A stretch of 64,000 nucleotides of DNA from Spirosomataceae bacterium TFI 002. GTDB taxonomy: Bacteria; Bacteroidota; Bacteroidia; Cytophagales; Spirosomataceae. Made by a program: the position numbers and the translations under genes. Within the stretch, counting starts at the first letter, position 1; every line of letters starts with the position of its first letter. Under the pieces are notes generated by a model. It made no database searches. It was not told where the DNA came from and worked only from the letters and a program-made list of their open reading frames with translations. Below are positions 53,256 to 54,521 of this stretch, piece by piece. The stretch covers positions 2,666,001-2,730,000 of the forward strand of contig LT907983.1 in assembly GCA_900230115.1 (NCBI GenBank). The letters are read 5' to 3'.

Positions 53256-53371
53256 AATAATTTATGAAAAACTCTTGGAATAAATAAAACTGTCCTACAT
53301 CTTTGCAATCCCAAATGAGGGGAGTCTAGCTCTTCCGATAGTTATCGGGAGGTTCAAAGCTTCAAAATTTA

Positions 53372-53446
53372 GGGAGTTTAGCTCAGTTGGTTCAGAGCAT
53401 CTGCCTTACAAGCAGAGGGTCGGGGGTTCGAATCCCTCAACTCCCA
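53372..53446 (+). tRNA. tRNA-Val (anticodon UAC)
   Basis: A 75-base cloverleaf. The acceptor stem pairs GGGAGTT (53372-53378) with AACTCCC (53439-53445), discriminator A53446. The D-arm AGCTCAGTTGG, anticodon stem TCTGC/GCAGA with loop CTTACAA (anticodon TAC at 53407-53409), and the T-arm GGTTCGAATCC are complete. CCA is not encoded beyond the first bases. A terminator begins four bases later. Confidence 0.96.
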
Positions 53447-53449
53447 CAC

Positions 53450-53479
53450 AAAGTCTTCGAGAAATCGAGGACTTTTTTT
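53450..53479 (+). terminator. Intrinsic terminator of tRNA-Val
   Basis: An 11-bp stem with one G-U pair (53450-53460 with 53465-53475) capped by a GAAA tetraloop, and seven T residues. Copies recur near 53570, 53690 and 53809. Confidence 0.88.
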
Positions 53480-53488
53480 GTTTTTAAG

Positions 53489-53846
53489 CCTCTGCCTTGG
53501 AAGGAGAAGGTTGGGGCGATGCGGCGTACCGATTCGAATCGCGAAATGTCGCACCACTTACTTCCACACAAAGTCTTCTAGAAATCGAAGGCTTTTTTTG
53601 TTTTTAAGCCTCTGCCTTGGAAGGAGAGGGTTGGGGCGATGCGGCGTTCCGATTCGAATCGCGAAATGTCGCACCACTCACTTCCACACAAAGTCTTCGA
53701 GAAATCGAGGGCTTTTTTGTTTTTAAGCCTCTGGCTTGGAAGGAGAGGGTTAGGGCGATGCGGCGTTCCGATTCGAATCGCGAAATGTCGCACCACTCAC
53801 TCCCACACAAAGTCTTCGAGAAATCGAAGGCTTTTTTCTTGTTTTA
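53489..53846 (+). repeat. Three tandem 120-bp repeats derived from tRNA-Val 3' half plus terminator
   Basis: Units lie at 53489-53608, 53609-53727 and about 53728-53846, nearly identical. Each starts with CCTCTGCCTTGGAAGG, a decayed anticodon arm of the tRNA, continues with GGTTGGGG, a 28-base insert, a T-arm-like palindrome CGATTCGAATCG, the acceptor 3' end CTTCCACACA or CTCCCACACA, then AAAGTCTTC...GAAA... and a T-run, which repeats the tRNA terminator. A more diverged copy follows near 53900-53965. No mature tRNA can fold from a unit, because the 5' half is absent. Open frames read through the array are artefacts of the period being divisible by three. Confidence 0.85.
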
Positions 53847-54068
53847 AAACGTAGTATTCGGTTTGCGAATAGAAGTGTATGTATGTTTGGAGTCGATACA
53901 TTGCACCGGCGAACGTCGCACCGTTTAACCCCGACCAAAGTCCTCTTATGGTAGACTTTTCTGCCTTATCTATTCAAGTTATTAGAAAGGGGTTGTTGAT
54001 GGCTTTTGAGAAAATATAAATTTATTTCGATTGCAAATTGTGCTTTGTATTAAGGCTTCAAAGTAGAA

Positions 54069-54521
54069 TCAATTCAAGACTCTCATGCCTTCATAAATAA
54101 CAATACTCACAGCGTTTGCTAGGTTAAGGCTTCGAACCTTGTCAGAGTAAATTGGAATATTGTATTGATGAGCCTCATTTGCTTTCAGTAGATCTTTGGG
54201 TAAACCGACAGATTCTTTTCCGAAAATCAAAAATTGTCCTTCTTGGAAGGGGATTTCCCAGAACGCTTTTTCTGCATGGCTCGAAAGAAACGCCATGGGT
54301 TCGTTTTTATTTAGTTCAAAAAACTCCTCTTGGCTTTCATAATATCGAACGTCTAAATGTTGCCAGTAATCTAGACCTGCACGCTTGAGTCTTTTGTCAG
54401 AAAGCTCAAACCCAAAAGGTTTAACCAAATGTAGTATTGATCCTGTTGCTAAGCTTAGTCGACCAATATTGCCAGTATTATTAGGGATCTCAGGCTCAAT
54501 TAAAACGATATTTAAAGGCAT
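54069..54521 (-). CDS. trmL: tRNA (cytidine(34)-2'-O)-methyltransferase
   Basis: The 150-residue SPOUT protein has the TrmL core: NIVLIEPEIPNNTGNIGRLS, KPFGFELSDKRLKRAGLDYW, FLIFGKESVGLPKDLL and the knot SLNLANAVSIVIYEGMR. It methylates the ribose of the wobble base in tRNA-Leu. It is next to the tRNA-Val array, though its target is another tRNA. Confidence 0.95.
   Translation of the reverse strand: MPLNIVLIEPEIPNNTGNIGRLSLATGSILHLVKPFGFELSDKRLKRAGLDYWQHLDVRYYESQEEFFELNKNEPMAFLSSHAEKAFWEIPFQEGQFLIFGKESVGLPKDLLKANEAHQYNIPIYSDKVRSLNLANAVSIVIYEGMRVLN

Follow-up and report, generated by a model that had tools for sequence, protein, structure and literature searches.

How a single tRNA gene came to be followed by a row of partial copies of itself, and whether these copies have a function, is the question raised by the tRNA-Val(tac) locus of Spirosomataceae bacterium TFI 002. 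The window analyzed here is the 64,000-nucleotide stretch of contig LT907983.1 that holds this locus, and all positions refer to it. tRNA-Val(tac) is the sole tRNA that ARAGORN calls in the window, and the units of the array behind it are uncalled (Table 1). A SpoU/TrmL-like gene on the minus strand (54069–54521) is convergent to the tRNA. Between the genes flanking the array there is no ORF of at least 80 amino acids other than one of 82 amino acids within the array itself. As 120 is divisible by three, this Arg/Lys-rich frame (53478–53726) can continue across the repeat; it brings to mind the small basic protein for which the E. coli tyrT repeats code.

Table 1. Features of the tRNA-Val(tac) locus and of the array behind it (positions in the window).
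Feature	Position	Strand	Evidence
tRNA-Val(tac), intact	53372–53447	+	ARAGORN; Rfam RF00005, 75.8 bits, at 53372–53446
Terminator of tRNA-Val	53450–53485	+	Terminator-like scan: 11 pairs plus T-run
Unit 1: 5'-truncated tRNA-Val copy, T-arm interrupted, plus terminator (stem 53570–53595)	53486–53605	+	Local alignment to tRNA, repeats, terminator scan
Left T-arm insert (GATGCGGCGTACCGA in unit 1), 5' of T-loop	53518–53532; units 2 and 3: 53638–53652, 53757–53771	+	Alignment gap; similar sequences at loci L208, L274, L276, L277
T-loop TTCGAATC of unit 1, between inserts	53533–53540	+	Sequence reading; alignment
Right T-arm insert, E1-like hairpin (GGTGCGACATTTCGC on the minus strand in unit 1)	53541–53555; units 2 and 3: 53661–53675, 53780–53794	-	Pattern matches; family occurrences
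Unit 2: built like unit 1; terminator stem 53690–53715	53606–53724	+	Alignment, repeats, terminator scan
Unit 3: built like unit 1; terminator stem 53809–53834	53725–53845	+	Alignment, repeats, terminator scan
Fourth piece, weakly related; holds GCGAACGTCGCACC (53909–53922) and a weak terminator-like site (53950–53965)	53846–53970	+	Shuffles, terminator scan

TRF reports a 120-bp array of 3.3 copies at 53440–53837 with 94% matches. The three units measure 120, 119, and 121 bp, and any two of them are identical at 112–114 positions, with 5–7 mismatches and 1–3 gap positions. In gapped local alignments, units 1 and 2 match the tRNA from nucleotide 25 to the end of the terminator T-run, while the best local piece of unit 3 is the T-arm, acceptor, and terminator part; the scores of the three units (76–85) lie far above the largest shuffled scores (22–27), and the terminator segment is 89–91% identical between units and tRNA. 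The units thus form an array of tandem tRNA pseudogenes, that is, copies that align to the adjacent tRNA above shuffles and are uncalled by ARAGORN. An earlier note on this DNA had described tandem tRNA-Val 3' parts in three nearly identical units of about 120 bp with four strong terminators in a row, and had proposed serial duplication as one origin; the repeats and alignments bear out both the description and the duplication of the tRNA 3' part together with its terminator, and the plus strand carries a fifth, weaker terminator-like site in addition to the four strong ones. The diverged fourth copy of that note survives in part: the piece shows some likeness to the units (of 1000 shuffles, 2, 68, and 7 score as high as it does against units 1, 2, and 3), but its match to the tRNA does not rise above shuffles (score 18; shuffled maximum 25). 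What likeness there is rests on GCGAACGTCGCACC and an AAAGTC stretch.

Within its own genome the array unit occurs at this locus only. A search with the unit body (53500–53580) in 222 genomes of the family, none of them another member of the window's genus, gave as its best outside match 26 nt at 92% identity (E 6.8e-4) in one genome, which we read as chance, so that the array as such appears private to the window's genome.

The copies are 5'-truncated and carry the terminator, but the T-arm is not merely decayed: in each unit the alignment leaves two gaps of about 15 nt relative to the tRNA, one on either side of the T-loop, which the earlier note had missed. The left gap falls between GGGG and the T-loop (CGATGCGGCGTACC), the right one 3' of the T-loop, around GCGAAATGTCGCACC, and the two inserts enclose the palindromic T-loop TTCGAA. 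The right insert is one of a set of dispersed repeats of about 16 nt found in the host's bacterial family, each composed of CGGT, a 4-bp stem, a CGNN loop, and the returning stem. We call this member E1 (CGGT-GCGA-CGTT-TCGC, the reverse complement of GCGAAACGTCGCACCG). The pattern GCGARAYGTCGCACC matches three times in the window (shuffles mean 0.08, largest 1) and is present in 33 of the 222 family genomes, compared with 9 of 222, one match each, for the reversed control. For the left insert, assignment to an element is less certain than for the right one. It resembles GATGCGGCACACCGA of the tRNA-His units in genome G022 (locus L208), which also hold a slightly different form of E1 with the relative orientation unchanged, as well as GATGCRGCATTCCGA, which adjoins E1 at three other loci (L274, L276, and L277).

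Elsewhere in the family, E1 abuts the T-loop in copies near tRNA-Asp (L269, with two units, and L283), in an Asp-like copy where no tRNA is called (L282), and in a copy near tRNA-Thr (L278); near a tRNA-His (L267) it stands at the T-loop with the loop altered to TTAGAG, and in a tRNA-Ala copy (L268) it occupies the anticodon loop. Many further sites lie outside tRNAs. Compared with intact genes, the element replaces one G, with or without a leading A, and the target is not restored exactly. In two genomes (G074 and G007), an E1-like sequence lies in an apparent RHS-type coding sequence, possibly in frame, by analogy with the Rickettsia palindromic elements.

The commonest of the hairpin set is a sister element, E3 (CGGT-CGGC-CGCT-GCCG; CGGTCGGCCGCTGCCG), carried by 79 of 222 family genomes, which belong to 13 of 36 genera, with a maximum of 24 copies (G233); its reversed control matches once, in a single genome. 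Outside the family, E3 is found in 1 of 390 genomes of the class, as is the control (395 were drawn, of which 5 belong to the family). In a sample comprising the first match in 30 of the 79 E3-positive genomes, taken in listing order and with 16 of the 30 from genus g33, a T-loop follows E3 directly at 13 loci; ten of these are from g33 and therefore are not independent. Among 40 further E3 regions, most of them from high-copy genomes, there are three T-arm copies (Cys, Ser-like, and Val), the remainder being mostly MITE-like and other repeats. A search that fixed only the T-arm flanks (GTCGGGG ... GTTCGAATC) gave 42 matches, which come from 30 of 222 genomes. A CGGT-type insert is present in 33 of the matches (one shortened, some double); the other nine look like chance. 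The stems of these inserts are CGGC/GCCG, CCGC/GCGG, and TCGC/GCGG, and a stem pair that has flipped from G-C to C-G is an argument that the hairpin form matters. CGGT hairpins abutting a T-loop were counted in 62 distinct contexts, against 0–2 for each of ten other tetranucleotides, a description rather than a rate, as the loci were partly chosen for E1 and E3 (of 63 rows, L109, which has the tag CGGA, was left out). tRNA-Val, Pro, Arg, Lys, and Cys are the kinds near which E3 copies lie or as which they are called, one copy is Ser-like, and double and triple stacked inserts occur.

Several loci show further arrangements. In two tRNA clusters (in G227 and G084), E3 occupies the T-arm of several tRNA-like copies that differ in kind, three of them in G227. 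Two genomes (G202 and G191) have tRNA-Val copies with a GC-rich insert in the anticodon arm in addition to the T-arm E3, and in G202 the tandem units, six in number, are of about 136 bp. In G233 and G090, a MITE-like repeat carries E3 at one or both ends, and this repeat is likely the cause of the high E3 copy number in genus g17.

Filled and empty sites can be compared directly for E3. The tRNA-Val array of G074 contains intact and interrupted copies together, which differ by 16 bp; of the four interrupted copies, three are in addition short of one T-loop base. In the MITE-like repeat (G233, G090, and G070), the sequence at a filled end is CCTAAAGG-ACGGTCGGCCGCTGCC-GGACTT; the opposite end is often empty, and some copies are filled at both. 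At two loci in G242 the element stands between TTTAGGGG and GTGAGG, and a similar repeat in G074 is uninterrupted; at two loci in G066 the frame of a transposase, which we take to be ISAs1-like, ends at the 16 bp and restarts directly after it in another frame. E3 is therefore one sequence that recurs at unrelated sites, each comparable with an exact empty form, as expected of a mobile element, whereas E1 loses one target base. Hairpin loops find no support as a general target rule beyond a few sites: with T-arm sites left out and near-identical flanks collapsed (71 to 54 sites for E3, 24 to 23 for E1), a stem of at least 5 bp surrounds 8 of 54 and 2 of 23 sites, against backgrounds of 6.5% and 8.9%.

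The interrupted tRNA-Cys of G233 cannot be the sole essential copy, as an intact tRNA-Cys is found elsewhere in the genome (a 72-nt match over the whole query). For the Ser-like interrupted copy of G070, a search for another copy found short partial matches only; we read it, without proof, as an extra copy. In the tRNA-Val arrays with inserts that we read, the first copy is intact. The intact tRNA-Cys and these intact first copies fit the view that insertion is tolerated solely in surplus tRNA copies, in which case spare copies would serve as a landing record of the hairpin elements. Some interrupted copies are listed by gene callers as real tRNAs (a Pro, a Lys, and a Cys case, at L245, L249, and L385), which distorts tRNA gene counts.

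To place the array among its relatives, we compared 61 loci, the window's own and 60 regions hand-picked among the matches listed from 149 genomes searched, which are no random sample and give no frequency. tRNA-Val(tac) is present at 57 and enough sequence follows at 56, one of them the window's. Seven of the 55 relatives' loci have a partial copy behind tRNA-Val(tac) above the shuffle threshold (G019, G049, G031, G075, G037, G032, and G137). Further cases, recognized by reading, are G058 and G074; G058, like G062, lies slightly above its own shuffles and below the margin, and G074 fails the margin because ARAGORN counts its inserted copies as tRNAs. In G122, eight full tRNA-Val copies stand in tandem, so within the order tRNA-Val is multiplied by other routes as well. 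The tRNA-Val copies of G137 carry hairpins of the type CCCGAT..ATCGGGA where the anticodon and T loops would be, perhaps a second type of hairpin insert. The palindrome CCGAT(0–8)ATCGG has its only match in the window just upstream of tRNA-Val (53335–53348; shuffles mean 0.12).

The explanation that we favor, and consider probable, is that the array consists of disabled tRNA-Val fragments that arose by partial duplication, invasion of a spare T-arm by mini-hairpins, and amplification. The series began with the tandem duplication, visible in the alignments, of the segment from mid-tRNA through the terminator behind the intact gene. Judging from the relatives, two hairpins of about 16 nt would then have entered the spare T-arm, one on each strand, with their 3' ends facing TTCGAA; the inserts of the window would thus have arrived by transposition, the hairpins probably being moved in trans by an enzyme. 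The interrupted unit would finally have been amplified, probably by unequal exchange, to the three near-identical copies observed, which now stand beside what may be an older, decayed piece. The array itself is most likely inert, with no function besides the extra terminators. In the window's own genome, E1 is confined to the array, apart from one unrelated match with one mismatch, and a search for E3 found none; therefore no activity is visible there.

The earlier note had also suggested that the units were left behind by an element that repeatedly integrated at the tRNA-Val 3' end and was lost again. This idea is reasonable because elements of relatives use that part of the gene for attachment: G008 and G067 each have it as a repeat, of 47 and 50 bp and at a distance of 10.1 and 13.5 kb, and near the far repeat lies a tyrosine integrase gene whose product has arm-binding, SAM-like, and catalytic domains; in G060 and G022 far 3' copies (nt 30–77 or 30–116) occur, among the matches listed, on the same contig as the tRNA. 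The similarity of the units moreover begins near the same tRNA position (nt 25, versus about 27–30). However, in G008 and G067 identity stops one base past the discriminator and the T-arm is intact, whereas identity in the window passes through the terminator of about 40 bp, every T-arm is interrupted, and the spacing is 119–120 bp; nor does the interval hold a long ORF besides the 82-amino-acid one. We consider integration scars very improbable and retain duplication with amplification. Only slightly less improbable is that the units are selected, either as structured RNAs or as a serial terminator isolating the convergent trmL-like gene from tRNA transcription. All three keep a strong terminator-like site, and they fold better than shuffles (z -2.0, -2.9, and -3.0), but the copied terminator and the inserts account for the low fold energies, Rfam gives no family at the array except tRNA, the unit body has no convincing relative in the 222 family genomes, and partial copies behind tRNA-Val exceed the threshold in just the seven of 55 loci named above.

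A different doubt concerns the inserts, which might be immobile products of hairpin-templated replication errors made in place in the palindromic T-arm. The T-arm is indeed palindromic, stacked double and triple inserts occur, and a stem of at least 10 bp surrounds 2 of 54 E3 and 1 of 23 E1 sites outside T-arms, against a background of 0.1%. Such an origin nevertheless appears unlikely, given that the same 16-bp sequence is present in 13 genera and also outside tRNAs, in repeats and in a transposase gene, and that most sites outside T-arms are no hairpin loops.

If the inserts are mobile, a broader proposal can be made, which we offer as tentative, its chances being somewhat below even: CGGT plus a 12-nt hairpin may define a mobile DNA class whose members measure about 16 nt, are among the smallest proposed, and are essentially restricted to one family. 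In some genera the 5' edge of the T-loop in surplus tRNA copies would be their top site; they could stack head to tail and would depend on an enzyme acting in trans for their movement, with the window array as the fossil of two insertions. Elements so small leave scant room for the usual transposon ends, which makes target choice and copying a testable question. In the literature, mostly open-access, we found nothing on inserts of this type in the T-arms of tRNAs from this group. A Y1/RAYT transposase is not supported as the carrier: of 30 Y1_Tnp loci, two, both from G053, have CGGT/CGGA hairpins with a CGNN loop in their flanks. Y1_Tnp matches occur in 16 of 17 genomes tested, the exception being G255, which has 17 E3 copies. 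An atypical RAYT is a possible carrier; PMC6006769 notes atypical structures in a Bacteroidetes subclass. Viral contigs gave no match to E3 or E1 joined to a T-loop.

Among known systems, the rtT repeats of E. coli tyrT are similar to the window array in that they, too, follow a tRNA gene in tandem and each include its 3' end; their units are longer, contain just the last tRNA bases, and are not known to have hairpin inserts. Elements with tyrosine integrases use the same tRNA-Val 3' part in relatives, but their attachment copies are uninterrupted and without a terminator, whereas the window units are interrupted and include it. The GC clusters of yeast mitochondria (PMC4478555) and the hairpin elements of sponge mitochondria (PMC2800124) are also very short, GC-rich, non-coding palindromes that spread and merge; they belong to organelle genomes, the best studied cluster has 42 nt, and the likeness is one of description only. 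CGTC-REPs, which include Rickettsia RPE-4 and RPE-6 and are reported from Bacteroidetes too, are hairpin repeats too and lack a dedicated transposase; for the elements described here, the search for one covered Y1_Tnp. The stems of CGTC-REPs are 8–9 bp long, the first two pairs being AT, and most carry a CCA tail (PMC3733652), in contrast to the GC-rich 4-bp stems of E1 and E3. The REP/RAYT system (PMC3733652, PMC6006769) shares with the hairpin elements the form of a short, GC-rich, dispersed hairpin with a tetranucleotide at its 5' foot, partly in inverted pairs, and some REP families sit within palindromes; the inverted E3 pairs about 50 bp apart in G233 and G090 recall REP dimers. However, REPs have the tag GTAG or GTGG instead of CGGT and a stem of 6–13 bp instead of 4 bp (PMC3733652), and copies lie beside a Y1/RAYT gene, whereas the hairpin elements have no consistent Y1 transposase neighbor. 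Their strong presence in tRNA T-arms likewise sets the hairpin elements apart from REPs.
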